This document shows positions 40,147 through 63,559 of a stretch of DNA of 64,000 nucleotides, piece after piece; position 1 is the first letter of the stretch; every line of letters starts with the position of its first letter. The position numbers and the translations under genes were made by a program. This DNA comes from an uncultured Dongia sp. GTDB taxonomy: Bacteria > Pseudomonadota > Alphaproteobacteria > Dongiales > Dongiaceae. The notes below the pieces were generated by a model. That model searched no databases. It was not told the origin of the DNA and saw only the letters and a list, made by a program, of their open reading frames with translations. The stretch spans positions 62,001-126,000 of the forward strand of contig NZ_CAKZGO010000003.1 in assembly GCF_936916975.1 (NCBI RefSeq). Reading direction: 5' to 3'.

Positions 40147-42393
40147 ATGGCCACGAAGCGCATCATCGCCTATTACATGCATGAGTATGAGGAAAGTGCC
40201 GCCAGATCGGCCATGCCAACTGGAGCATCCACGCAGTCCTATGTCGTAGGGGACATAGACGAGACCCTGATCGACGGCTTGAGAGAAAAGGGCCTCATCA
40301 TTCAGGAGATGGTGGAGCCACCACTGTCACCTCTGGTTGGGCTATCGCCACAGCTCACCGCCGTGGTCACGAAGATGGGCGCTGATTTTGCGGCTATGGA
40401 CACCGCCCTAGACTTCGACCCGACTGTCCCCCGCCTTTACACGATAAGCCTTGCTGGTCCCTTGCTGACGGAATGGCGGACACAGCTGACAGCGCTCGAC
40501 GTCAACATCGTCGAATCGATTGGTGCGCAACGTTACGTCGCAGAAATGCAGCTTCATCAGGCGGCGGCTGTTCGGCAGTTACCATTCGTGACGTCCGTAA
40601 GTGTGCATAACGAGCAGGAGCAGGCGCCACCCATTCCCTCGGCACAGGCCGGTCCACCGGTTGACATCGGCATCGACCGCATCCTGCCCTACGACATACG
40701 CCTCAAATCCGCGGACGACGCCAGTACGGTCCTCGCGTTTCTGGAGGGACGGAACGCGCTGGTGGCCGGACATCGGGGCAGAAAGATCCGCGTGCACATG
40801 TCCGAGAACTCGGACGTTCTCCCGGCGCTTGGCACCATGTCGGAAGTCATGCAGGTCATCGAGTTTGTTCCACCCAAGCTCAGCAACGACCGCGCGCGCG
40901 TCCTTGTCGGCGTCGAAGGCCCGACTCCCCCTGTCACAACGCTCATCCACTATGACGGCACCGACCAAATCATTGGCATCGCGGATACTGGCATCGACGA
41001 CAACCATCCCGATCTGCAAGGCCGATTTGTCGGCATATCCGCCCTCGGCCGGACTGGCGATCACTCGGACCCGAATGGCCACGGCACCCATGTAGCCGGT
41101 AGCATCGGCGGCGATGGCAGTGCCTCGCAAGGCGCCATCAAAGGAATCGCGCCTGCCGTCCGTTTCTTCTTCCAGTCGATCCTTGACTCGGACGGCAAGC
41201 TCAGCGGCCTGCCCTGGGATCTCAATGATCTGTTCGACGAAGCCTATCAACGCGGCGTGCGAATTCACAACAACAGCTGGGGCGCTAGTACCGCGTCACG
41301 CTACACATTTAATTCAATCGAGGTGGACGAGTTCGTCGCCGCCCATCGTGACATGGTGATCGTGATTGCCGCCGGCAATGAAGGATCTGCAAGCAATCCC
41401 TTGAACACCTCGCCGGGATCAGTCGACTGGTTGTCTATCGGCTCGCCTGCCACAGCCAAGAACGCCATCACCGTCGGGGCTAGCCAGACGGACCGCACGA
41501 CTGGAGGCTACTCAACCTATACCTGGGGCCAGACCTGGCCACAGCATTTTCCGAAGCCGCCGATCGCTGTCGAGAGGATCTCCGGCAATCCCGATTCCAT
41601 GGCAGCGTTCAGCAGTCGCGGCCCCTGCGACGATCGCCGCATCAAACCGGATGTCGTTGCGCCCGGTACCGACATCGCCTCGACCAAATCCGCACTCGCA
41701 CCGCTGCGCAATTTCTGGGGCAGCTATCCTGGCCACAGCGGTCACTATGCCTATATGGGCGGAACCAGCATGGCGGCGCCTGTCGTCACCGGCTGTCTCG
41801 CCCTCATTCGCCATTACCTGGTCAAGGATCGGCAGCACGAACCCTCGGCGGCCCTTCTCAAAGCCATTCTCATCAACAGTACCCGACACTTGAAGGGGGA
41901 CAGTTCCACCGCCAATTTCAACACGCTACCGAACTTTCACCAGGGATTCGGCTGCGTCCATATGCCCAGCGCGATCCCGACCGCACAGCAGAACGATTTC
42001 AGGTTGGAGTTCCTCGACACCTGGAAGGATCCGACACGGCAATTCACTGCAACCGGCCAGCGCTTCCGTTACCTCGTCTCGGCCAAAGATACACGTCCGT
42101 TGCAGTTCTGCCTTGCCTACACCGATCTGCCCGCGCGCGCCCTGCAGAACGACCTGAATCTTTTCATTCAGCAAGTGCCCAATGGCAGAAAATGGACCGG
42201 CAACGAACAGTTGCCCCTGCGAATCTCTCCGGTAGACGCCGAAAACAATGTCGAGGTCGTCCGTATCGATACGCCAGTGAAGGGTGACTATCTCATTCAG
42301 ATCACCGCCACCAATCTTCTTGGTACTACCGGCCAAGACTTTGCCCTGGTTGTCAGCGGCGATCTCACGAGCGGTTTGACCCTCGTTCCCTGA
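40147..42393 (+). CDS. Subtilisin-like (S8) serine protease, cytoplasmic, with long N-terminal domain
   Basis: 748 residues. The catalytic triad is complete: Asp280 (IADTGIDD), His312 (NGHGTHVAG) and Ser541 (GGTSMAAP), with the oxyanion Asn near 411 (AAGNEG). The ~270 residues before the protease domain are not a normal subtilase prodomain and match nothing I can name; about 150 residues follow it (beta-rich P-domain-like). There is no signal peptide, so it should act inside the cell. Start ATG 40147 follows GGGAGG; the in-frame extension upstream has an unlikely AT-rich translation. It forms a two-gene unit with the MBL-fold gene 46 bases downstream. Confidence 0.9.
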   Translation: MATKRIIAYYMHEYEESAARSAMPTGASTQSYVVGDIDETLIDGLREKGLIIQEMVEPPLSPLVGLSPQLTAVVTKMGADFAAMDTALDFDPTVPRLYTISLAGPLLTEWRTQLTALDVNIVESIGAQRYVAEMQLHQAAAVRQLPFVTSVSVHNEQEQAPPIPSAQAGPPVDIGIDRILPYDIRLKSADDASTVLAFLEGRNALVAGHRGRKIRVHMSENSDVLPALGTMSEVMQVIEFVPPKLSNDRARVLVGVEGPTPPVTTLIHYDGTDQIIGIADTGIDDNHPDLQGRFVGISALGRTGDHSDPNGHGTHVAGSIGGDGSASQGAIKGIAPAVRFFFQSILDSDGKLSGLPWDLNDLFDEAYQRGVRIHNNSWGASTASRYTFNSIEVDEFVAAHRDMVIVIAAGNEGSASNPLNTSPGSVDWLSIGSPATAKNAITVGASQTDRTTGGYSTYTWGQTWPQHFPKPPIAVERISGNPDSMAAFSSRGPCDDRRIKPDVVAPGTDIASTKSALAPLRNFWGSYPGHSGHYAYMGGTSMAAPVVTGCLALIRHYLVKDRQHEPSAALLKAILINSTRHLKGDSSTANFNTLPNFHQGFGCVHMPSAIPTAQQNDFRLEFLDTWKDPTRQFTATGQRFRYLVSAKDTRPLQFCLAYTDLPARALQNDLNLFIQQVPNGRKWTGNEQLPLRISPVDAENNVEVVRIDTPVKGDYLIQITATNLLGTTGQDFALVVSGDLTSGLTLVP

Positions 42394-42439
42394 CTGACGA
42401 GAGGCCATCACCAACCAAACGCCACTTAGGAGCAAAACA

Positions 42440-43543
42440 ATGTTCAAGCTAAGGATCGTGCAGGCGAATTACGGCGATTGTTTCATTTTGGAGTACGGTA
42501 CGCCGGCCGCGCCGCGCTATCTGCTGATCGACGGTGGTCCGCTCAACGTCTTTTCTGATCATCTTGAAAGCGAATTGCAGGCCATCGCCGATTCCGGCGG
42601 CAAGCTTGACTTGGTCGCGGTCAGTCACGTCGATACTGATCACATTGTTGGTGTCATGGATCTCATGGCCTCGCTGCGAGACCAGCGCACCAATGGCACC
42701 GACGAGCTGATCGGGATAAATGCTATCTGGCACAACAGCTTCTCCAGCACGCTGGATTCGGATGGCGAGATTCAATCCCGACTGAACGGCCTGCTTGGCG
42801 CATTCAGTAGTGCGACCCCACAATCGACGGCGGCGGTTGCAGGTATCGGCGAGGGCAATCGGGTCCGCCAGTTCGCCCTCCAGCTCGGCATACCGATCAA
42901 CGATGGCTTCGCTGATAACCTCATCTGCGTCGACGATGCGCCAGACCCGATTCAGTTCGGCAACCTCTCCCTACAGATTGTCGGTCCGACCCGCGCCAAT
43001 CTCGATGAACTACACGACGATTGGGAGGAATGGCTCGATAAGATGGGCGCCGAGCTCGCCAGCAGCGATCCGTCGGCAAAGGCCAACGCCGACATTAGCA
43101 TTCCCAATCTCAGCAGCGTCATGTTTCTGGCGATGGCTCACGGCAAGACGATCCTGCTCACAGGCGACGGCCGCAGCGATCATCTCCTGTCCGGGCTGAT
43201 AGCGAGTGGCTTGCTCAGCGAGGGTGGCACCCTTCACGTCGACATCCTCAAGGTCATGCATCATGGCAGCGACCGCAACGCGACCAAGAAATTCTTCAAG
43301 ACGGTTACGGCCGACACCTATGTCGTATCCGCGAACGGCCATCCGGATAACCCTGATCTCGCTACACTGATCTGGATTGTTGAAGCGGCACAGGCGGCGG
43401 ATCGCAACATCCGTCTAGTCTTCACCAACGAGACCCCAGCGACTAGAAAACTCCGCAACGAATACCCACCTGCAGACTATGGCTACGATCTGGCCATTCT
43501 CGCCCGCAGCAAGCACGCCATGACTCTCTCGCTCGCCGATTAA
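42440..43543 (+). CDS. Metallo-beta-lactamase-fold hydrolase (ComEC-like MBL)
   Basis: 367 residues. The metal motif is SHVDTDHIVG (His63, Asp65, Asp67, His68), with a further conserved loop ILLTGDGRSDHLL and a later His cluster KVMHHGSDRN. This is the arrangement of ComEC/Rec2-type and phosphodiesterase-like MBL enzymes, without any membrane segment. AGGAG sits eight bases before ATG 42440. It pairs with the cytoplasmic subtilase, a combination suggestive of a protease-activated or protease-regulated nuclease. The target, whether nucleic acid or another phosphodiester, is not known. Confidence 0.88.
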   Translation: MFKLRIVQANYGDCFILEYGTPAAPRYLLIDGGPLNVFSDHLESELQAIADSGGKLDLVAVSHVDTDHIVGVMDLMASLRDQRTNGTDELIGINAIWHNSFSSTLDSDGEIQSRLNGLLGAFSSATPQSTAAVAGIGEGNRVRQFALQLGIPINDGFADNLICVDDAPDPIQFGNLSLQIVGPTRANLDELHDDWEEWLDKMGAELASSDPSAKANADISIPNLSSVMFLAMAHGKTILLTGDGRSDHLLSGLIASGLLSEGGTLHVDILKVMHHGSDRNATKKFFKTVTADTYVVSANGHPDNPDLATLIWIVEAAQAADRNIRLVFTNETPATRKLRNEYPPADYGYDLAILARSKHAMTLSLAD

Positions 43544-43835: not shown

Positions 43836-44609
43836 ATGGGCATCAATTCAAGCCGCGATTTTATAAAAGAACTTAAGGCGCATCCTGAGAACTTTTATAT
43901 CATCCACTATTCATGTCAGAGCCTTTACGACGATAACGCTAGCCTGTCCCCTCGGATCACCTCCATCGCTATCACGCATTTCTCCACGGAACAGACTGTC
44001 AGCTTCTCGACCCACTCCATCGCAGAAGAACTCCACATTGCGCGCGACCAAGTTATCAACCGCTTTGATGATGTGGAAAGGCAGTTGCTTCGCGAATTCT
44101 ATGCGTTCGTTCGTGATAGGCGCGACAAATACTGGGTACACTGGAATATGAGAAACCTAACTTACGGGTTCGAACACTTAGAACACCGTTATAGAGTTCT
44201 CGGCGGAACTGACGCATCCGTCATTCCGGTAGAAAGACGACTGAATCTAAATGACTTACTGGCTAATCGCTATGGTAGCGACTATGCGGCCGATCCAAAG
44301 ATGAAAAATCTGATGGAATCGAACGGAGGAATTCACAGGGATTTCTTAACTGGCCCAGAAGAGGTAGAGGCGTTCGGGAGGAACGAGTTTATTCGAATGC
44401 ACAACTCCACCCTCGCAAAAATCGGCTTCTTTTATCGAGTTATGCATAAGCTCGTCACCGGAAAGCTAAAGACTGCATCGCGAGGCTTTGGCGTAACGCT
44501 CGACAGAATATTCGAAGGCCGTGCCGCCAAAGCCATTGGCTTAGTTGCAACGATAGTTACCATCCCCATCGCCACGTGGCAGGGCTATTTATGGATCTGG
44601 TCCACCTAA
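43836..44609 (+). CDS. Hypothetical protein with C-terminal membrane anchor
   Basis: 257 residues. The N-terminal ~130 residues (YIIHYSCQSLYDDNASLSPRITSIAI and KYWVHWNMRNLTYGFEHLEHRY) have the rhythm of an RNase-H-like DEDD exonuclease, with the usual DxE motif replaced by HYSCQS. This resemblance is only by eye. The protein ends in a single hydrophobic helix (about 232-252), a tail anchor to the inner membrane. Codon use and base composition are more AT-rich than in the metabolic genes, suggesting recent acquisition. It is flanked by non-coding DNA on both sides and seems monocistronic. Function unknown. Confidence 0.75.
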   Translation: MGINSSRDFIKELKAHPENFYIIHYSCQSLYDDNASLSPRITSIAITHFSTEQTVSFSTHSIAEELHIARDQVINRFDDVERQLLREFYAFVRDRRDKYWVHWNMRNLTYGFEHLEHRYRVLGGTDASVIPVERRLNLNDLLANRYGSDYAADPKMKNLMESNGGIHRDFLTGPEEVEAFGRNEFIRMHNSTLAKIGFFYRVMHKLVTGKLKTASRGFGVTLDRIFEGRAAKAIGLVATIVTIPIATWQGYLWIWST

Positions 44610-44729: not shown

Positions 44730-45602
44730 ATGACCCTCCCCACTCTTACCCAAGCACACCCACCGCTACCGCTTGCCGATCTAGTGCGTGAGATCAACAG
44801 GTTTGCGACGATGGAAGAGTCGGAAAAGCGCGCGCTAATTAGCCGACTTGTCAAAATACATCCGATGCTGAGTCTTAAATGGGGACCAGGCCATCAGTTT
44901 CGCAGAGTAAGGAAGTTCTCTTCAGGCGTCACACCTCAACACGTCGATGAAATCATATGGCGCCAGGATGCACCAGCGACGCTAGGACGAGCAAACCCGA
45001 AGGGCTTCTCTGTCATGTATGTAGCGGATCGCCAAGATACTGCCCTAAGGGAAGCGCGGATCAATGCCGATTGGGTCACCATTTCTGAATTTCAAATTCG
45101 ACCGGGAAGCTCCATCTTCATCTACCCAATAGGTGAACTCCTCCAAATTGTCCGGACAGGGCGCGGTTTTCTCTCTGGAGATGCGTCCGATGGCATCTCG
45201 GCGATGCTCAATGCCTGTCCCCATGAAGAAGCTCAGTCACTTCTTCTAACCGACGCTTTCCTATTCGAACAACTCGTGGGACATGACGATTATGAGTTAT
45301 CATCCTTCGTCGCGATGGAGATCTTCTCAAAATCGGACCACATAACAGCCATCGCTTATAGCAGCGTGCGTCAACTTGGCGCCATCAATCTTGCAATTAA
45401 GGCAGACACCTTTTGGCACTCATGGGGACTGACCTCCTTGAGGCATGGCTATGCCGAACATTTAGCGCGTGGCTTCTATCAGCTTTCGAGAATCACACGG
45501 GCGAATGGAATCTGCAAATCGGGAAAACTTTCTTGGGAGCCAACATCGGATGACGAGTTATCGACTGCCCCACTCGATCCACCCTACTTCCCTGAAAGCT
45601 GA
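44730..45602 (+). CDS. RES-domain protein
   Basis: 290 residues. The RES fold (ADP-ribosyltransferase-like, named for conserved Arg, Glu, Ser) is recognised by FRRVRKF, then LGRANPKGFSVMYVADRQDTALREAR (near 86-111), and a late LLLTDAFLFEQLV segment. RES proteins are best known as NAD-degrading toxins paired with an Xre/MbcA-type antitoxin; here no such partner gene is adjacent, and the protein is longer than typical toxins (~150-220). The ~60-residue N-terminal addition and the absence of an antitoxin suggest a stand-alone or island-borne effector. Confidence 0.82.
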   Translation: MTLPTLTQAHPPLPLADLVREINRFATMEESEKRALISRLVKIHPMLSLKWGPGHQFRRVRKFSSGVTPQHVDEIIWRQDAPATLGRANPKGFSVMYVADRQDTALREARINADWVTISEFQIRPGSSIFIYPIGELLQIVRTGRGFLSGDASDGISAMLNACPHEEAQSLLLTDAFLFEQLVGHDDYELSSFVAMEIFSKSDHITAIAYSSVRQLGAINLAIKADTFWHSWGLTSLRHGYAEHLARGFYQLSRITRANGICKSGKLSWEPTSDDELSTAPLDPPYFPES

Positions 45603-52909: not shown

Positions 52910-54148
52910 ATGCGAATTCTTCACGCGGCAGACATTCATCTGGACAGCCCGCTCGCCGGTCTGCGCCAGCGTGCCGGAGCTAGAGGCGACGAACTTGCTG
53001 ATGCAACCAGGCGCGCCTTCGAGAATTTAGTACAGTATGCCATCGATCAGAAGGTGGACCTCTTGGTTATCGCCGGCGACAACTACGATGGCCGACACCG
53101 CGACTACAGCAGCCTGCAGTTCTTCGCCGCTCAGATGCGCCGCTTGCTGAAAGCCGGGATTCGTATCGTCATGATTCGCGGCAACCATGATGCCGAGAAC
53201 CAGCTTGTGCTGACCCTGCCGGAAGGCGTTCGCCTGCTCTCAGTGACACAGCCCGAAACCATCGAATTCGACGACTTGCGGCTTGCCATCCATGGCCAAA
53301 GCTACCCGAAGCGCGACGTGAAAGATAATCTCGCACAACACTATCCCGATCCAGTCGCCGGGTTCTTCAACCTTGGCGTCCTACACACAGCGGTCGAGGG
53401 CTATGGCGGCACCCACGCTGCCTATGCGCCTTGTTCGGTCAAGGATTTGATCGACAAGCGCTACGACTACTGGGCGCTTGGCCATGTCCATCGGCGGATT
53501 GAGATTAATCGGGCTCCCTGGATCATCTATCCCGGAAACCTTCAGGCGCGGCACGTCAAAGAATCGGGTGCCAAAGGAGCTACGCTAATCACGGTTGACG
53601 GCAGTAGCGTTTCCGAGGTCGCTCACGTGCCGCTCGACGTAGTGCGCTGGTCGGAGATCGAGATAGACGTCTCCGGAGCCGCCGACATCGACGACCTTGC
53701 GCCACTGCTGACGAAAGCCTTGGGCAAGGCTGCCGACGACGCCGAGGACAGGACCTTGGCTGCGCGGGTTAGCCTCGTCGGCGAGACCAAGATACACGGG
53801 CGCCTCAAGAGCGAAACGCTCCGGATCGACGCCGAAGTCGCCGAAGCCGCGGAGGCTGCCGGCGATGTTTGGATCGAGCGGATCGAGGTCGCGACCTCGC
53901 ACCCCGCCAGAGCCGAGGCACCGGACGAGGCAATTGCCGCCCTCGATGACGAGGTGAGGCGCCTGAAGGACGGAACTATCGACCGAGAGAAGTTGCGCGA
54001 GACCGTCTTCGGCATGCCCGGCCGCTTCACGGCGGGTCTGCGGCGGGATGCCGACCTCGAAGCCCTGGACGACGCGGCGCTCGACGCCATCATCGAGGAT
54101 GCCTGCGACCTGCTGAAGGCCAGGCTGCTTCCCGAAGCCAAAATCTAA
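52910..54148 (+). CDS. Mre11/SbcD-like metallophosphoesterase exonuclease (YhaO type)
   Basis: 412 residues. Phosphoesterase motifs are intact: ILHAADIHLDSPL (near 3-15), VIAGDNYDG (near 54-62), IRGNHDAEN (near 85-93), GVLHTAVEG and WALGHVHRR. These coordinate two metal ions for 3'-5' exonuclease and endonuclease action on DNA ends. The C-terminal ~150 residues form a partner-binding region. The gene for its Rad50-like partner starts 3 bp after its stop, so they form a complex like SbcCD or YhaO-YhaN. The size and sequence resemble YhaO rather than E. coli SbcD. Confidence 0.92.
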   Translation: MRILHAADIHLDSPLAGLRQRAGARGDELADATRRAFENLVQYAIDQKVDLLVIAGDNYDGRHRDYSSLQFFAAQMRRLLKAGIRIVMIRGNHDAENQLVLTLPEGVRLLSVTQPETIEFDDLRLAIHGQSYPKRDVKDNLAQHYPDPVAGFFNLGVLHTAVEGYGGTHAAYAPCSVKDLIDKRYDYWALGHVHRRIEINRAPWIIYPGNLQARHVKESGAKGATLITVDGSSVSEVAHVPLDVVRWSEIEIDVSGAADIDDLAPLLTKALGKAADDAEDRTLAARVSLVGETKIHGRLKSETLRIDAEVAEAAEAAGDVWIERIEVATSHPARAEAPDEAIAALDDEVRRLKDGTIDREKLRETVFGMPGRFTAGLRRDADLEALDDAALDAIIEDACDLLKARLLPEAKI

Positions 54149-54151
54149 ATT

Positions 54152-57100
54152 ATGCGCATCGAAGAACTCCGCCTCTGCCGCTATGGGCTCCACCAGGACC
54201 GGGTCCTGAGTTTCCCGTCCGCTTCCCCCGGCAAGCCTGACCTTCATATCGTCGCCGGCCCCAACGCCACCGGCAAGTCGTCCGCTCGGGAAGCCGTGAC
54301 AGATCTTCTCTACGGGTTCCAGAACGTCTCCCCTTGGGCCATCGGATACGAACCGAGGCTCTTGCGCATCGGCGCAGTCATCACCGACCGCGCCGGCCGT
54401 AAGCTTGACTTCGTTCGCCTGAAGGGGCGCAAGGGGACCGTAGTCGATGCAAACGAAACTCCGATCGACGAGAACCTGCTGAAGAGCTTTCTTGGTGTCC
54501 CCGAGCGAGCGCTCTATCGATCTCTCTATTCGCTCGACCAAGCCGCCTTGCGGGACGGCGGAGAGGCGATGCTCAGCGCCGACAGCGATGTCGGGCAGAC
54601 CATCTTCGCGGCCGCGAGTGGCCTTGCCACCCTTTCCGCGGTGCAGGCGACCCTCGCAGAGGAGGCGGACGCAATCGGCTCAATCCGGAAGAGCAGCCAG
54701 AAGCCGGTCTGGCTGGCGGAAAGCACCTATGCCGATGCCATCGCGCGCGCTCAGGAGGCGTCACTTCGGATCGAGGACTGGAACGCGGCTGATCGCGCAC
54801 TCAAGGAGGCAATCGAAGCCGTCGAAGCGCTACAACAACGGCAGATCGAGCTTGAGGCCGAGCGTGATCTCCTGGATCGCCACCTCCGCGTGGTCCCTCT
54901 TCTATCCGACCTCGCCCGGCTCCGTGCAGAGCTCGGGGCCCTCGGCGGTGGACAGCTGCTCGCAGAAGGCTTCGGCGCCCGGTGGAAAGCGGCACGGGAG
55001 GCCCATGACCGTTTGACCGTCATGCTTGACAGCACGAGGACCGCAAAAGAACGCGCCGATGCGGCTCGAAAGGCCCTCCCAATTTCTGCAGGACCCCTTC
55101 CAGGTTTTGCTGGCGAGATCGAATTTCTAAACACCCAGATCGGCAACATTCGAATTCTCATGGAGGACGAAGGGAAGCTCGATGGCGTGGAGTACGGGAT
55201 ACACGACCGTCTCCAGGACCGGGCAAAGAGCCTCGGCGGGAACGCTGAGGACGTCGATCTCTTGATCGAGAAACTTCCGACACCCCAGCTAATTGCCACG
55301 ATACGAGACCTCATCACCAAGCACGAAGTCCTGGCCAGCAGTCTCGAAAATGCGAAAGTGGTCAGGGCGACTGCGGAGCGCGCCGTCAAGGAGACGGAAG
55401 CGGCGCTCGCCGAGCTCGGGAATCCGAAGAGCCCTGGACCGGCGGCGGGTCTGCTCCAAACCATCCTGAGCCTCGGAGCTGACGCCAGGAAGTCGGTTAA
55501 GGATCGCGACGCCTTGGCGGCCGCCAAGGCGGCCGAAGTCGCAAAATTGCAGAACTTGACCGGTTGGAGCGGTAAGCCCGCAGACCTCCCCCATTCGATC
55601 TTCCCGTCCTTGACCACGCTCAGCGCCGCCAAGATTACAATTGAGACCGCGCGCCGGGAAGAGGCGCTTGCTCACGCCAACCTTGAGGCCGCAGAAGCGG
55701 AAGTCGCCCGGATCGAGGCAGAACAAGATACCAGTGCTGTTGCCGCAGTTCCGACAGAGGACGCGGTTGCGGCCGAGCGAATGCACCGGGATCATCGGTG
55801 GGCCGCAATCCGCCAAATGTCGCTGAAGGGAGAAACTTCGGACGAAATCTCCCTCGACGCCTATGAGACCCGCGTCCGGAAAGCCGATCAGCTGATCGAT
55901 CAAAGGCTTGGTGGCGCTGACAAGATAGCGGCTCAGTGCCTGCAGGAAACTGAGCTCCAGCGCCGGAAGGAGGCCAAGGGGCGAGCAGAAAGGACTCTCG
56001 AGCAGGCGACCTCGCGCGTCCTCGAATCGTCCAACGCCGCCGCGGCGCTTTGGCAGGGTACCGGCTATGTAGGTGAAGTCGGCACGCCGGATGCTATGCT
56101 GAACTGGCTTCAGCACAAGGAAAGAGTGGTAGAAGCCGTAAACGCCAGGATTATCACAGAAAGTGATGCGGAAGCGTCCGGGAAAGCCCTCGCCGACAAG
56201 ATCGTGACTCTGCGCCAAGCCGCCGCCCTCCTTCTTGTGGCTCTTCCAGACGCCCTGGAGAGTGCCGCCGTCGTCGAAGTCGCCTTTGCCAAGGTCAATG
56301 CCGCGCTCGTGGAAGCGCAGAACGCCTGGACCAGGTCGCAGCAGCTGGCGGTCGAGCAGAAGAAGCGGAAGACAGAGGCGGAATCCGCGGCAGACGGCGA
56401 CAAAGAGGCGAGAACTGCAATCGAGGCCTGGGCGACGCTTTGGAAGGCGGCTATGCCGGCGATCAACCTCGCAGAGGACATGGCGCCCGCGGCCGCGATA
56501 ACAGCACTCGAGCAATGGGACGCCTTCTCAAGAGATGTACAACTTCTTAAGGAAGCGAGGCGCCGCGCGGACGGTATACGCAACGATCTCTCGGCGCACC
56601 GCACTAGAATCGAGGCCCTGGTCAGCCGCATCTGGCCAGAAGGTGTGCTCGCTGTCGAAGATGCGCCCGACAACGAGCATTGGTATGACTGGCCATCGCT
56701 TCTCTATGGAATGCTCGGCGCGACGAAGAAGACCGCCGACGCAATCGAGCGCGCCGATGGTGCGGTCGAAGAAGCGACGGCTGGACTTACGAAGACGGAG
56801 ACTGCTGAGGCGGCGACCGCCAACGCACTGAAAAAACTCCGGGCCGAAGGGGCACTGAGCGAGGAGGAGGATGTTGACGCGGCGATCGAGACCAGCACGA
56901 AGCGACGCAATCTCGCAGCGGGGATCGAGGATAAGACCAAGGCGCTGCACGAAGCCGGCGACGGCGAAGCTGAAGAAAGTCTGAGAACTGCGCTCGGGGA
57001 GGCTTTGCGTACTGATGTCCAGACCGCCGCTTCTAGGAATTCGGTAGCGAGAATAGATCTTCGGGCAGAGCTCCAGCGGGTAGTCGAACAGCGCCTCAGT

Positions 57101-57691
57101 TGCCGTAACGCGCTCGACGCCCTGGAGAAGAAATCCGGTGCGGGCGTCGCACAGCACCTGGCTTTGAGCCAGGCAGCGAAAGTAGGCGACCTCACCCGGC
57201 GCTGGATGCGCCTCACCGCGGCAAGACAGCTGCTCGATGCCACCATCGAGCGCTATCGCCAGGAGCATGAGGGCGAGTTCATCCGCCGAGCCAATGAGAT
57301 ATTCATTGCGATCGCCGGCAAACAGGCGCCCGACCATTTCGTCCGCCTCGAGGTCGATTATGAGCGGCCGGAGGAACCAGAACTGATCGTAGTCCGCGAC
57401 TCAGGCACTACGGCACGCGTCAGTGCGCTCAGCGAGGGCACCCGGGATCAGCTTTGGCTTGCACTCCGCATTGCAGCTCTTGAGCAGCGGGTCAAAGATG
57501 CCGAGCCAATGCCGTTCCTTGCCGATGACCTCTTCGCATCGTCTGACAAGTCGCGTGCTGAAGCCGGTTTGCTTTACCTTGCCGAGCTTGCGAAGTCGAC
57601 ACAGGTCATACTCTTCACTCATCACGATTACATCGTGTCGGCTGCTAAGGCCATTCTGGGGGACAGCAATGTTCAGAGTCTGACGAAGTAG
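54152..57691 (+). CDS. Rad50/SbcC-like SMC-type ATPase (YhaN type)
   Basis: 1179 residues. Walker A GPNATGKS (36-43) is at the N-terminus. A long, charged, largely helical middle (about 170-1030) forms the coiled coil. The signature (VSALSEGTRDQLWLALRIAALE) and Walker B/D-loop (PFLADDLFASSDKSRAE) are at the C-terminus, followed by the switch His (ILFTHHD). No zinc-hook CxxC is evident in the middle, consistent with YhaN rather than Rad50/SbcC. With YhaO it would process DNA ends. Located in a defence-type island, it may serve anti-phage DNA degradation as well as repair. Confidence 0.92.
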   Translation: MRIEELRLCRYGLHQDRVLSFPSASPGKPDLHIVAGPNATGKSSAREAVTDLLYGFQNVSPWAIGYEPRLLRIGAVITDRAGRKLDFVRLKGRKGTVVDANETPIDENLLKSFLGVPERALYRSLYSLDQAALRDGGEAMLSADSDVGQTIFAAASGLATLSAVQATLAEEADAIGSIRKSSQKPVWLAESTYADAIARAQEASLRIEDWNAADRALKEAIEAVEALQQRQIELEAERDLLDRHLRVVPLLSDLARLRAELGALGGGQLLAEGFGARWKAAREAHDRLTVMLDSTRTAKERADAARKALPISAGPLPGFAGEIEFLNTQIGNIRILMEDEGKLDGVEYGIHDRLQDRAKSLGGNAEDVDLLIEKLPTPQLIATIRDLITKHEVLASSLENAKVVRATAERAVKETEAALAELGNPKSPGPAAGLLQTILSLGADARKSVKDRDALAAAKAAEVAKLQNLTGWSGKPADLPHSIFPSLTTLSAAKITIETARREEALAHANLEAAEAEVARIEAEQDTSAVAAVPTEDAVAAERMHRDHRWAAIRQMSLKGETSDEISLDAYETRVRKADQLIDQRLGGADKIAAQCLQETELQRRKEAKGRAERTLEQATSRVLESSNAAAALWQGTGYVGEVGTPDAMLNWLQHKERVVEAVNARIITESDAEASGKALADKIVTLRQAAALLLVALPDALESAAVVEVAFAKVNAALVEAQNAWTRSQQLAVEQKKRKTEAESAADGDKEARTAIEAWATLWKAAMPAINLAEDMAPAAAITALEQWDAFSRDVQLLKEARRRADGIRNDLSAHRTRIEALVSRIWPEGVLAVEDAPDNEHWYDWPSLLYGMLGATKKTADAIERADGAVEEATAGLTKTETAEAATANALKKLRAEGALSEEEDVDAAIETSTKRRNLAAGIEDKTKALHEAGDGEAEESLRTALGEALRTDVQTAASRNSVARIDLRAELQRVVEQRLSCRNALDALEKKSGAGVAQHLALSQAAKVGDLTRRWMRLTAARQLLDATIERYRQEHEGEFIRRANEIFIAIAGKQAPDHFVRLEVDYERPEEPELIVVRDSGTTARVSALSEGTRDQLWLALRIAALEQRVKDAEPMPFLADDLFASSDKSRAEAGLLYLAELAKSTQVILFTHHDYIVSAAKAILGDSNVQSLTK

Positions 57692-59137: not shown

Positions 59138-62100
59138 TTGGACACTTGGCGGAATGTTCGTCTCAAGGCTCGGCGGTGTCACGAACGAGCCTTGAATAGA
59201 TCCGGAGGAGACCGGACTGGCCGAGCACTTGTAAACGGTGCCTTGGAGTCAGCGGATATTGAGCTGCGCTACTGCAAACCCGGTGAAGTCCTTGGAGAGG
59301 GTGTACAAGCCTCGTTTGAGCGCGCGGACGGCATGATTAACCTGGTTTCTGGTCAGGACCCTAAAGAAGAACTCGTTGTTCTGGCGCATGAGATCGGACA
59401 TTCTGAGCTTCACCACGATCCAAACAGTGAAGTAAAAAGCGTTCTCTCACGCCTCGGTGGAGATCCCATCGACAGTGGCGCCAGCGTTGTCGAGGGCTAC
59501 TCGCCGCGCGAACGCAAGGAACTCCAAGCAGACGTATTCGCAGGCGAGTTCCTATGCCCGTCGGACTGGCTCAGGTCGGAGTTCACAAAAAAAGGACGGC
59601 GTCCGGCCGAGATCGCCGACGAGCTTGGCGTTCCCTATGGACTGGTGATGAACCAGGCAATTCGGGCGCTGTTGTTACCTTCCCTCCGGGAGCCTGTGCC
59701 TCATGAAGCGCCCGCCCCCATCGCACTCGATCTGAGCCAAGAAGCCGCCGCGACATGGACTGGCGGCCCGCTGCTCGTCGATGCAGGACCGGGGACCGGA
59801 AAGACAAGAACGCTGGTGCACCGGATTGGACACATTCTTGGGACAGGCGCCGCGTCCGGCTCGGTGCTCGGCCTCACCTTCTCAAACAAAGCCGCCGAGG
59901 AGATGCGAGAGAGACTCTCCGACAGCCATGGCGACGCGTCCATCGAAATGTGGGTCGGCACTTTCCATGCATTTGGGTTCGAGATGGTTACCAAATGGCC
60001 AGGCCGGATCGGGCGGATGGACACCGTAAGGGTCCTAGACCAAACAGCGCAGCTCGAACTCCTGGAATCCAATCTCCCTAGATTGCCTCTCCGCCACTAT
60101 CAGAACCTCGTGGAGCCGGCCTACGAGCTTGTCTATGTCCTTCAAGCGATTTCACGGTGTAAAGACGAGCTGATCACGCCGAATGAGTACGTCGCTGCAG
60201 CAGAAGCCGCTATGCGCGGTGCACCGCCTGAAAGCCTAGAGGCGGCTGAGAAGGCTATCGAGGTCGGGCAGATTTACAAGGTATATGAGGAGCTGCTCCT
60301 CGAGAACAATGCGGTCGACTTTGGCGATCTCGTGATGCTTGCTGTACAATTGATCGAACAACATGAAAACATTCGCGCAGAGTATCAGGCCCGTTACCAA
60401 CACATCCTTGTTGATGAATATCAAGACGTGAACTTCGCCAGCGCCAGGCTGCTTCAATTGTTGGCGGGTGCCTGCCGAGATGTTTGGGTAGTAGGCGACC
60501 AGCGTCAGTCGATCTATCGCTTCAGGGGCGCTGCTCCGGCCAATGTAGAGCGGTTTCAGGATGATTTCGGTGGGTCGAAACGTTCGCTCGCTAACAATTA
60601 TCGCTCGGGCGAACAGGTGGTTCGTGCTTTTTCCGAGTTCTCCAGGCACATGGCGGCCGATCCAGGTGCGACAGCGAGCTGGGCTGCTTCTCGCGGCGAG
60701 ATAGACGAAGTCACCCTGACCATCGCCCCAACTGTTGTCCACGAGGCTGCGGCAATACGGGACAAGATCGAAGCGCTCAAAATCAAGGGCGTTCCCTACA
60801 GCGAACAGGTTATTCTCGCTCGCAGTCATCTTACCTTGTCCAGGATCACGGACGTCCTGGAGAGACTCGGCGTCCCACTGCTATATCTCGGCGATCTGTT
60901 CGAACGTGATGATGTTCGCGATCTCCTCTCCTTGGTCGCGATCGACGGGGAGTTCGGAGGGATCGGACTCGTGAGGGTGGCCCAGTTGACGGAGTATGGC
61001 GTCCCGAAGGGGGACGCCCTCGCCGTCATTCAGTGGTGCAACGACAAAAAGGTCGATGTGTTTGAAGGCCTTTCCAAGCTTTCCGAGATCGATGGGCTGA
61101 GCTTACCCGGACGCGCTGGTCTCGGGAAACTATCACAGCATCTATCCGGTATGGACCGGCATACGTCCCCGTGGACTTTATTGACAACTTGGCTATTCGA
61201 ACGCAGCGACTATATCCGTCCTCTCATGCAGTCTGGTGATGCGAAATCACAACAGAAGCTCATCGCGATCTACCAGCTTCTGAAGGTATGCAGCGAGCAG
61301 ATTGACGTCGAGGGTCGCCATAATCTTCGCGATCCTGGCCGCCGCGCCTTTCTGGCGAGGATCCGCCGGATCGAGCTTTTAAACCAGGATAGTCGATATC
61401 GAGCAGTCGCTTCCGAGGCGAGCGATTTCGATGCCGTCAGAGTGATGACCATACACGGAAGCAAAGGACTCGAATTCCGCGGCGTCCACCTGCCGGCAAT
61501 GGCCACCCGCTACATGCCTACAGCGCGCCAGTGGAACCGATGCCCGCCGCCGCCGTCACTGGCAAAGCTTGCCATGCAGAAGGAGGATCATGACGCAGAG
61601 GAGGAGTGCCTATTCTTCGTCGGCCTCTCGCGTGCGCGTGACTATCTGTGCCTCAGCCGCGCGGAAAAATACGTCCAGACTAACGTCAGCGCCTCCAAGT
61701 TCCTCGACACCATCGCGCCATACATAAAAGTCAGCAAGTTCACCGGGGCAGTGCCTCTGGAGAGCGAGCTCTCGGCGGCAACAGCGCCCGCCCCGCGTGA
61801 CACGTACGCGGAGAGCGAACTCGAAATCTACTTAAAGTGCCCGGCCCGCTATCGTTACGAAATCATTGAAGGCCTGCGCGGTGGTCAGGGCGCCTCTCCG
61901 TATCTGCGCTTGCATAAATGTGTCTATCGCACCATCAACTGGATTGAGGAGCAGGCGCGGGCCGGATCTCCCGTCACAGCCGACCAGGCAAAGGAAGAAC
62001 TCCACCACCGGTGGGAGGATGATGGGCCTCTTGAACACGGATTCAATCAATACTACCGCACCGCGGCCGACTTGATGGTGAGTTCCGTGGCTACGCTTGT

Positions 62101-62500
62101 GGCCTCCGAGAAAGGCAAATACGACCTTGAGCCTTGGTCGGTCAAGCTTCCCGGGAAAACGATCACCGTGTCGCCCGATCGCGTGATTCTCGAGCAAACT
62201 GGCAGGCTGCGGGTCCAGCGCGTCCGGACAGGGCGTAAGACGAAATCGGAGCATGAGCGCCGGATCTATGCTCTCATCCGTCTGGGCGCCGCGCAGAAGT
62301 ACTCAGGTCGCCCCCTCGATCTGGAAGCCTACTATCCGGCAACATCTGAGTCGGTCCTAATGCCGCCGAAGGACGACCCCAAGCTCATCAAAGAGTATAC
62401 CGGCGCCATCGCGGCGATCGAGCGCGGCGAGTTTCCGGCCAAGCCGGACGAAGCGCGGTTTTGTCCTAGCTGCCCCTACTATTTCGTCTGCGGGGCGTAA
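59138..62500 (+). CDS. ImmA/IrrE metallopeptidase-UvrD helicase-PD-(D/E)XK-like nuclease fusion
   Basis: 1120 residues with three parts. (1) About 1-185: IrrE/ImmA peptidase with zinc motif HEIGH (84-88) and a downstream KELQADVFAGEFLCP. (2) About 200-830: superfamily 1 UvrD-type helicase with Walker A AGPGTGKT (216-223), DEYQ (426-429), GDQRQSIYRFRGA, MTIHGSKGLEF and VGLSRARDY. (3) About 890-1120: AddB-like nuclease domain, with the iron-sulfur cysteines seen as a first Cys in LKCPARY and a final Cys-x2-Cys-x5-Cys (CPSCPYYFVC). The nuclease active site looks altered: where relatives have D-x-K, this reads VQRVRTG. The start is TTG 59138. It is the third gene of the sigma operon. Confidence 0.87.
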   Translation: MDTWRNVRLKARRCHERALNRSGGDRTGRALVNGALESADIELRYCKPGEVLGEGVQASFERADGMINLVSGQDPKEELVVLAHEIGHSELHHDPNSEVKSVLSRLGGDPIDSGASVVEGYSPRERKELQADVFAGEFLCPSDWLRSEFTKKGRRPAEIADELGVPYGLVMNQAIRALLLPSLREPVPHEAPAPIALDLSQEAAATWTGGPLLVDAGPGTGKTRTLVHRIGHILGTGAASGSVLGLTFSNKAAEEMRERLSDSHGDASIEMWVGTFHAFGFEMVTKWPGRIGRMDTVRVLDQTAQLELLESNLPRLPLRHYQNLVEPAYELVYVLQAISRCKDELITPNEYVAAAEAAMRGAPPESLEAAEKAIEVGQIYKVYEELLLENNAVDFGDLVMLAVQLIEQHENIRAEYQARYQHILVDEYQDVNFASARLLQLLAGACRDVWVVGDQRQSIYRFRGAAPANVERFQDDFGGSKRSLANNYRSGEQVVRAFSEFSRHMAADPGATASWAASRGEIDEVTLTIAPTVVHEAAAIRDKIEALKIKGVPYSEQVILARSHLTLSRITDVLERLGVPLLYLGDLFERDDVRDLLSLVAIDGEFGGIGLVRVAQLTEYGVPKGDALAVIQWCNDKKVDVFEGLSKLSEIDGLSLPGRAGLGKLSQHLSGMDRHTSPWTLLTTWLFERSDYIRPLMQSGDAKSQQKLIAIYQLLKVCSEQIDVEGRHNLRDPGRRAFLARIRRIELLNQDSRYRAVASEASDFDAVRVMTIHGSKGLEFRGVHLPAMATRYMPTARQWNRCPPPPSLAKLAMQKEDHDAEEECLFFVGLSRARDYLCLSRAEKYVQTNVSASKFLDTIAPYIKVSKFTGAVPLESELSAATAPAPRDTYAESELEIYLKCPARYRYEIIEGLRGGQGASPYLRLHKCVYRTINWIEEQARAGSPVTADQAKEELHHRWEDDGPLEHGFNQYYRTAADLMVSSVATLVASEKGKYDLEPWSVKLPGKTITVSPDRVILEQTGRLRVQRVRTGRKTKSEHERRIYALIRLGAAQKYSGRPLDLEAYYPATSESVLMPPKDDPKLIKEYTGAIAAIERGEFPAKPDEARFCPSCPYYFVCGA

Positions 62501-62584: not shown

Positions 62585-63073
62585 ATGACCACTATCGTTT
62601 TCGTCAACATTCACGGCAAGGATGGCCTCTCAGAAGTCGAATTGCCGGAGGCTGCCAACCATGAGCACCTCTTCACTGTCCTCGCCAAGCTTGGTGTCGA
62701 GGTTGACCAGGAGACCTTCATCTTCATCGACGAAGAGGAAGAGCCCCTGGATCGGACGAAGCCCGGCCCCCTGCCCTCGATCAAACGCGGCAGCCACATC
62801 CATGTAAGCAAGTGCCGCAAGGTCCAGGCCACTGTGCACTATCTCGAGAAGACGAAGGATCACACCTTCGCTCCCGGCGCGCGGGTCAAAAAGGTGAAGG
62901 CCTGGGCGGTCGATAAGTTCAAGCTCGACCAGCACGACGCCGCCGAGCATGTCCTCCAGCTCTGCGGTTCGACCGACCGCCCGCCGACCGACACCCGCCT
63001 CAACAAGCTCACTCAGCCTGGCATTTGCACGGTCTGCTTCGATCTGGTCCCGGAAAAGCGCGTCGAGGGCTAA
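62585..63073 (+). CDS. bilA: Tandem ubiquitin-like (beta-grasp) protein of a Bil-type conjugation system
   Basis: 162 residues. Two similar beta-grasp units are visible. The first (about 1-78) contains FVNIHGKDGLSEVELPE and FIFIDEEEEPLDRTK. The second (about 79-155) contains VHYLEKTKDHTFAPGARVKKVKAWAVDKFKLD. The protein ends RVEG, a free C-terminal glycine suited to activation by an E1 and transfer by an E2. A tandem UBL followed by E2 and JAB genes is the arrangement of the ISG15-like Bil antiphage system (BilA-BilB-BilC-BilD). GGAAAGGA-type ribosome sequence precedes ATG 62585. Expression may be driven from P2. Confidence 0.78.
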   Translation: MTTIVFVNIHGKDGLSEVELPEAANHEHLFTVLAKLGVEVDQETFIFIDEEEEPLDRTKPGPLPSIKRGSHIHVSKCRKVQATVHYLEKTKDHTFAPGARVKKVKAWAVDKFKLDQHDAAEHVLQLCGSTDRPPTDTRLNKLTQPGICTVCFDLVPEKRVEG

Positions 63074-63559
63074 ATGAACATCGCGGTTGCCCCAGATCGG
63101 CTGCTGCTCGAGCATGACCTCGCCGCGCCGGAGTTCCGGTGCGGCGAGATCGAAGGACGCTGGCGGCGTGGAACGATGACCTGGCCCTACCTGAACGTCG
63201 CCGTGGCCGCCGAGCGGCGCCCCGGCGCTCCTGACGAGTACGGCTTCCGTTTCGAGTGTTCCGGATATCGGGACACCCCCGTCACGGCCAGGCCGTGGGA
63301 CGTCGCGGAAGACACCGCACTGCCCTTCCACCGGTGGCCGGCCGGCAAGTTTATCATCCCCTCGATTTTCCGACCTGAATGGAAGGACGGACATTGCCTT
63401 TACTTGCCCTGCGACCGGCTCTCGATCGAAGGGCACGACAACTGGCGCAGCGACCACCCGAGCCGGCTCTGGCAACCGCAGCGGGGGCTCGTCTGCTATT
63501 TGGAGCAACTCTATGATCTCTTTCATCAAGCCGATTATTCGGGCATTCGCGGCGCCTGA
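63074..63559 (+). CDS. bilB: E2-like ubiquitin-conjugating protein of a Bil-type system
   Basis: 161 residues. The latter half has the E2 (UBC fold) landmarks: [16 protein letters not shown], with Cys108 in the position of the catalytic cysteine (G-x-C-L), then [29 protein letters not shown], the tryptophan and last helices of the fold. It begins at the base after the UBL stop, so the two are coupled. It would receive the UBL from an E1 as a thioester and hand it to target proteins. Cys113 is the only nearby alternative for the active site. Confidence 0.75.

Follow-up and report, generated by a model that had tools for sequence, protein, structure and literature searches.

We examined a pair of adjacent genes in a 64,000-nucleotide stretch of DNA from an uncultured Dongia sp. 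(contig NZ_CAKZGO010000003.1, positions 62,001 to 126,000 of the forward strand; hereafter the window, in whose numbering coordinates are given): a gene for an S8-family subtilase (S8) and, directly behind it, a gene for a putative pro-nuclease with a metallo-β-lactamase (MBL) fold of the ComEC type. Sequence comparison makes it probable that the two form a defence module in which the protease activates the nuclease. The principle of protease-gated MBL nucleases is already known (Tuck et al., 2025; PMC12799240, main text); what is new here is the subtilase partner of the KP-43 type, an N-terminal module (N1) specific to the paired subtilases, the repeated recruitment of subtilases by one MBL family, and a change in the candidate gating loops of the MBL that accompanies a change in the class of the neighbouring protease.

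The subtilase–MBL gene pair and its conservation

Both genes are complete and lie on the forward strand, as do all features located below within them. The S8 gene (40147–42393; 748 residues) runs from an ATG at 40147, behind a GGGAGG ribosome-binding site, to a stop that ends at 42393; 46 base pairs (bp) further on begins the MBL gene (42440–43543; 367 residues), which has an AGGAG ribosome-binding site of its own upstream. A first-pass annotation had described a complete S8 protease without a signal peptide and, 46 bp downstream, a ComEC-like MBL enzyme without a membrane domain, both inside an island, and all of these points were borne out: the Pfam Peptidase_S8 profile matches residues 271–602 (E 4.6e-50) and the catalytic triad D280/H312/S541 is intact, the hydropathy of the S8 N-terminus peaks at 0.97 and that of the MBL at 1.57 over 15 residues, and the window ends in BilA/BilB, with BilC, BilD and ZorABCD just outside it.

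We searched a genome collection with an alignment of the MBL proteins only, so that the choice of loci was independent of the subtilase, and kept 80 loci of at least 294 relatives. A subtilase gene lies directly upstream of the MBL gene, on the same strand, at 67 of these 80 loci; at one other it lies directly downstream, and one locus is cut by a contig end. Among the hosts of the pairs are Chloroflexota, Bacteroidota, Pseudomonadota, Myxococcota, Acidobacteriota, Actinomycetota, Gemmatimonadota, Verrucomicrobiota and Planctomycetota, so that the rare co-occurrence which the first-pass annotation had named as speaking against its reading was not what we found. The same arrangement occurs on nine plasmids, most of them conjugative and one from an actinomycete; viral contigs held no S8 relative and a single marginal MBL relative, and thus gave no sign of phages carrying the pair.

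Phospholipase genes accompany a part of these loci. In a locus from the window's own genus (L028, 6103–10550) the order is patatin, S8, MBL, and the same three-gene order recurs at L017 and L020; patatin accounts for 13 of the 52 upstream neighbours of pairs, and a Tle1-like gene for 1 of the 52 upstream and 3 of the 46 downstream neighbours. The patatin phospholipase may be a second effector of a larger S8–MBL system. Beside the pairs whose subtilase is of the KP-43 type, as in the window, no recurring third gene was found. At three further loci (L113, L115, L117) a related MBL gene lies directly upstream of ABC-three-component genes.

The MBL protein and its two insertions

The MBL protein matches the PADLOC profiles of LmuA (E 1.6e-52), Avs1a (E 1.9e-43) and the DRT-associated MBL (E 4.4e-34), and Pfam Lactamase_B weakly (E 5.9e-05); its score against the NCBIfam Avs1a model (178.7 bits) falls below the cut-off of 420, and we therefore regard it as kin of Avs1a and not as a member. 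ComEC is also among its sequence relatives in the PDB, and the ComEC nuclease domain (9ic4, 266 residues) aligns with 244 of its 367 residues (Z 22.9, 2.8 Å), which leaves about 120 residues extra in the window protein. The metal motif H63-x-D65-x-D67-H68 (42626–42643), D243 (43166–43168) and H274/H275 (43259–43264) are invariant in 8 diverse and in 20 close MBL relatives. Its kinship suggests that the protein is a deoxyribonuclease (DNase).

Access to the active site of HamM and Avs1a is controlled by two disordered insertions, and cutting by a protease yields an active DNase; HamM is cleaved after I118 and I218, and Avs1a has I134 and I234 (PMC12799240, main text). The structural model of the window MBL (mean predicted local distance difference test score, pLDDT, 90.4) has its sole weak blocks at residues 121–130 and 211–220, at about the same places as those cut sites. 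They fall within two insertions that we treat as candidate gating loops: insertion 1, at residues ~104–150 (42749–42889), least ordered over 121–130 (pLDDT 63), and insertion 2, at residues ~196–222 (43025–43105), least ordered over 211–220 (pLDDT 65). Loop 1 of the relatives has a recurring hydrophobic position, often Met, that the window sequence does not have.

These loops differ according to the protease next door. Seven members inside the window's own MBL clade have no S8 partner; six of them neighbour another peptidase-type gene, namely caspase-domain genes at L030 and L035 (where a C14 gene lies downstream of the MBL), clostripain at L037, and C25, C1 or CHAT genes at L046, L038 and L049, and at L047 no protease neighbour was identified. 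The median Arg+Lys fraction of the loops is 0.17 in the S8-less vs. 0.05 in the S8-paired proteins (p 0.0005), while outside the loops the two sets do not differ (p 0.50). In four S8-less proteins the core of loop 1 contains an Arg (TRS, KRG, MRA, ARS) where the S8-paired proteins have non-basic residues, and in most S8-less proteins loop 2 is longer by two to four residues. Clostripain and metacaspases cleave after basic residues, so the change runs in the expected direction. At L042 a contig end has removed the gene upstream of the MBL; the loops of this MBL resemble those of S8-paired proteins, and in the tree it falls with an S8-paired sequence. As a side observation, the contigs of L047 and L049, both close MBL relatives without S8, come from metagenome bins classified as Nitrososphaerales and Heimdallarchaeota (classification as given).

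A KP-43-type subtilase with an added N-terminal module

The window S8 appears to be a cytoplasmic member of the KP-43 type, a kind of subtilase that is usually secreted. Its catalytic domain (40897–42018) contains D280 (40984–40986), H312 (41080–41082), S541 (41767–41769) and the oxyanion residue N411, all four invariant among the 13 paired S8s aligned, and is followed by a C-terminal β-sandwich domain of the KP-43 type (42019–42390), whose profile is common to S8s of this type unlinked to an MBL and over which the alignment to KP-43 (1wmd) extends to residue 738. The best solved relatives of the S8 are SubHal (5fax) and KP-43 (1wmd), at E 5e-74, and the S8 model aligns with 1wmd over 369 residues (Z 42.0, 2.4 Å, 41% identity). 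The KP-43 catalytic domain, the triad and the C-terminal β-sandwich are thus all present. A secretion signal, by contrast, was not found in the window S8, and the N1 module stands in its place; most unlinked KP-43-type relatives open with a hydrophobic, signal-like stretch (hydropathy maxima of 2.0–3.4 in most of the unpaired ones, vs. the 0.97 given above), whereas the MBL-linked S8s do not. Plasmid sequences from Azospirillum, Methanohalobium and Indioceanicola, the best plasmid matches to the S8 alone, are KP-43 relatives without an MBL partner, and we used them as controls.

The first-pass annotation had called the region ahead of the catalytic domain an unfamiliar 270-residue N-domain, adding that a known prodomain of a housekeeping protease would speak against its reading; the region is nearer to 250 residues, two of its three modules are of the ordinary KP-43 propeptide type, and the remaining one, the foremost (N1), was found in MBL-linked S8s only. 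AlphaFold predicts three β-α-β-β-α-β modules, at residues 3–54, 96–153 and 179–239, and this is the topology of subtilisin propeptides. N2 (residues 93–160; 40423–40626) is propeptide-like, and its profile matches in 18 of the 18 unlinked KP-43-type loci tested; N3 (residues 175–250; 40669–40896), also propeptide-like, is related to N2 (hhalign E 2e-4) and present in some unlinked KP-43-type S8s as well. The structural match of the S8 model to ProN-Tk-SP covers residues 53–745, and that to pro-Tk-subtilisin begins at residue 178.

N1 (residues 1–62; 40147–40332; mean pLDDT ~92 over residues 1–50) has a profile of its own, and hhalign found no sequence similarity between it and N2 or N3. Of the KP-43-type S8s, 14 of 14 that are MBL-linked have it, against 0 of 18 that are unlinked (Fisher p 2e-9, uncorrected for kinship). 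As 13 of the 14 linked sequences defined the profile, the informative side of this comparison is the absence of N1 elsewhere, together with one linked S8 (L150) that was independent of the building of the profile and matches it at E 1.2e-18. The missing signal peptide in the linked S8s and the N1 in its position suggest a secreted protease that has been kept in the cell, with N1 replacing the export signal. At a Myxococcales locus (L044, 667–7964) the S8 carries an extra N-terminal domain ahead of N1, and two nucleoside triphosphatase (NTPase)-like genes precede it, one of them ending at the S8 start; both features fit an N-terminal region that receives a signal, a role that N1 may play as a sensor of infection.

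The MBL genes have three kinds of S8 partner: the window S8 and 13 others are of the KP-43 type (37–52% identity over their whole length), and the rest belong to two other S8 types, the larger group of which includes many with an additional phospholipase gene (patatin, Tle1-like). The window S8 is much closer to unpaired, mostly secreted KP-43-type subtilases (213–274 bits) than to the other paired S8s (at most 74 bits). In a tree rooted by including generic, unrelated S8s, a single clade of all MBL-paired S8s was rejected (log-likelihood difference 222, p-AU 1e-60); paired and unpaired KP-43-type S8s form one group (support 100/100) within which the paired ones are a nested clade (97/93), though long branches enter into some joins of the S8 trees. 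The MBLs that accompany the three S8 kinds all lie on one branch (100/100), apart from the Avs1a, caspase-linked and ABC-three-component MBLs. A single nuclease family has therefore recruited subtilases on two or more occasions. Across the 13 pairs of the KP-43 type, tree distances between the S8s correlate with those between the MBLs (r 0.89, a value reached by 0 of 5000 permutations); shared vertical descent contributes to this correlation, although the hosts span several phyla.

Proposed mechanism, genomic setting and known systems

We reasoned that the pair would act as a self-contained, two-protein abortive-infection module. The MBL would be a ComEC-like DNase that two loops lying across the active site keep switched off, and the subtilase a cytoplasmic zymogen restrained by its N-terminal propeptide modules. 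An infection signal would probably be received by the N-terminal region of the subtilase, most likely by the pair-specific N1, and would activate the protease; the active subtilase would then cut both loops of the MBL, and the resulting degradation of DNA would kill or arrest the infected cell. A fuller version, which we offer only as a tentative proposal, would make the subtilase sensor and switch at once: a captured secreted protease whose export signal was replaced by N1 and whose propeptide release arms the loop-gated DNase, with the loops retuned whenever the partner changes between subtilase, caspase and clostripain, and with two or more independent recruitments of subtilases.

Several observations weigh against this account. 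In fold, the phosphorylcholine esterase Pce ties with ComEC (Pce and CbpE, Z 22.9 and 22.8, vs. 22.9). The residues at which known relatives are cut, Ile in HamM and Avs1a or Gly in CanC, have no counterpart in the loop cores, so that the exact cut site in the window MBL cannot be named. The S8-less MBLs form one clade (97/94), and the switch in their loops may therefore be a single event and counts as few, and for some of them the protease partner was assigned solely from its position near the MBL gene. Paired sequences supplied the N1 profile, and confidence in the S8 model is low over the catalytic domain (mean pLDDT 68.5). Defence genes, finally, are only occasional immediate neighbours of the pairs (Pycsar TIR, Dsr2, dGTPase and SIR2-pAgo), in counts made without a background control, so that the enrichment near defence genes, for which the first-pass annotation had proposed a check, is suggested rather than shown.

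The polarity could also be the reverse, with the subtilase destroying or restraining the MBL in the manner of an antitoxin until infection blocks the protease and frees the nuclease. Such an arrangement would give the same operon order and coevolution, and protease-restrained toxins exist as a general idea; we nevertheless consider it very unlikely, as the propeptide modules point to a protease kept off by default, and two retained loops whose residues vary with the class of the neighbouring protease fit limited cutting better than degradation. All members of this MBL kind proven in the main text of PMC12799240 are, moreover, activated by their protease and not restrained by it. The pair could also be a protease with a gated hydrolase that is not a nuclease: the MBL would then be a phosphodiesterase or resemble a choline esterase, with lipids, wall polymers or a small-molecule signal as its target. 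The tie of Pce/CbpE with ComEC and the phospholipases (patatin, Tle1-like) that accompany many relatives would suit that idea, which we judge improbable: the best sequence relatives are the Avs1a, LmuA and RTasMBL nucleases, with ComEC in the PDB, the phospholipases are separate genes, and DNase function has been proven for this kind of nuclease (PMC12799240, main text).

An unlikely but more serious alternative is that the two genes are the effector part of a larger system, completed by a sensor gene nearby (the gene at 43836, the RES-domain gene at 44730, or an NTPase such as those at L044). The L044 locus, with its extra N-terminal domain on the S8 and its two preceding NTPase-like genes, speaks for this, as do the proven systems, where a sensor is either joined to the protease in one chain or bound to it in a complex (PMC12799240, main text); no third gene, however, recurs by the KP-43-type pairs, and the gene at 43836 starts 292 bp past the MBL stop. 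That an ordinary housekeeping or secreted protease merely happens to lie beside an unrelated MBL gene is scarcely credible: although the window S8 shares its catalytic domain, N2, N3 and C-terminal domain with secreted KP-43-type subtilases, it has no signal peptide, N1 is confined to MBL-linked copies, the trees are correlated, and the conserved pairing across phyla already contradicts it. We thus favour activation of the nuclease by the subtilase. Should that step be confirmed, the two genes would amount to a suicide switch, very small and portable, that a protease triggers; the propeptide of the subtilase, together with N1, would then be a concrete place to seek infection sensing.

The pair sits in a defence island. 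A complete Bil (ubiquitin-like) operon, BilABCD, spans the right end of the window, with BilA/BilB at 62585–63559, and is followed on the opposite strand, beyond the window, by a complete type I Zorya system (ZorA–D), the remainder of the Bil operon and Zorya being located at G000:C3 from 125513 on (L174, 1514–12193); both systems lie ~19 kb from the pair. GC content drops to ~0.50–0.55 between 42 and 50 kb. Scans of the window for tRNA genes and Rfam families gave no matches, so that an insertion site was not located, a promoter and terminator scan gave nothing above chance, and in a synteny comparison the matching contig of a relative (G005) ends at the locus. Other genes of the surroundings include one at 43836 for a 257-residue protein without a Pfam or PADLOC match, which precedes a gene for a RES-domain protein (44730–45602), a candidate NAD-degrading toxin 1.2 kb past the pair; an Mre11-like nuclease gene followed by one for a 1179-residue AAA_27/SMC-like ATPase with weak LmuB and PtuA matches (52910–57691); and a gene whose single product fuses an IrrE-like peptidase, a UvrD helicase and a PD-(D/E)XK nuclease (59138–62500).

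The pair was compared with four known defence systems, and none of them accommodates it. For AVAST type 1, besides the low Avs1a score, no trypsin-like Avs1b lies directly downstream, the partner being an S8 upstream; for Canu, no caspase-family CanA adjoins the MBL, whose neighbour is the S8; for Lamassu, the MBL is flanked by the S8 and the gene at 43836, and the gene that weakly matches LmuB is 10 kb distant and has an Mre11-like partner of its own; and for IetAS, the S8 scores 43.5 bits against the NCBIfam IteS/IetS cut-off of 900, and no ATPase gene adjoins the pair. IetAS (IetS subtilase and IetA ATPase) does resemble the pair in using an S8 protease in a defence system, with a weak profile match (E 3.9e-20), but the partner of the window S8 is an MBL enzyme. 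The extracellular subtilases KP-43 and SubHal (1wmd, 5fax) share the catalytic and C-terminal domains of the window S8, and secreted members of their family its N2 and N3, whereas the window S8 has no signal peptide, has N1 added, and is linked to an MBL gene.

In its general form the pair resembles the protease-gated MBL pairs: it has a ComEC/Avs1a/LmuA-type MBL with its metal motif, next to a co-inherited protease gene. The first-pass annotation could not name it as an established system, a statement now outdated, since trypsin–MBL and caspase–MBL pairs with the same logic have been proven (PMC12799240, main text), while its idea of a conserved protease with a nuclease-like effector that it may activate is well supported by comparison. 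With the pro-nucleases of Hachiman (HamM), AVAST-1 (Avs1a), Lamassu and DRT (Tuck et al., 2025) the window MBL shares the ComEC-like fold, two insertions at about the same places, co-inheritance with an adjacent protease gene and, by the LmuA/Avs1a profiles, its kind; it differs from those described there in that its protease is an S8 and not trypsin-like, lies upstream and not downstream, and is not fused to a sensor, and in that the MBL lacks the conserved loop Ile and sits on a separate branch (100/100). Canu (CanA caspase, CanB and the MBL nuclease CanC) likewise encodes a stand-alone, non-trypsin protease ahead of its gated MBL nuclease, but with a caspase, CanB, Ig/TPR parts and a conserved loop Gly, none of which the window pair has; it has a subtilase instead. 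The only report bearing on an S8–MBL system that our literature search found is PMC12799240, whose proven protease partners are trypsin-like and caspase, and whose main text mentions MBL nucleases beside 'other diverse' protease families without naming S8, which may stand unnamed in its figure S2. The comparison shows unrelated proteases being adopted by one nuclease family whose candidate gating loops vary with them, and protease-gated nuclease immunity, proven with trypsin and caspase partners, would extend to subtilases.

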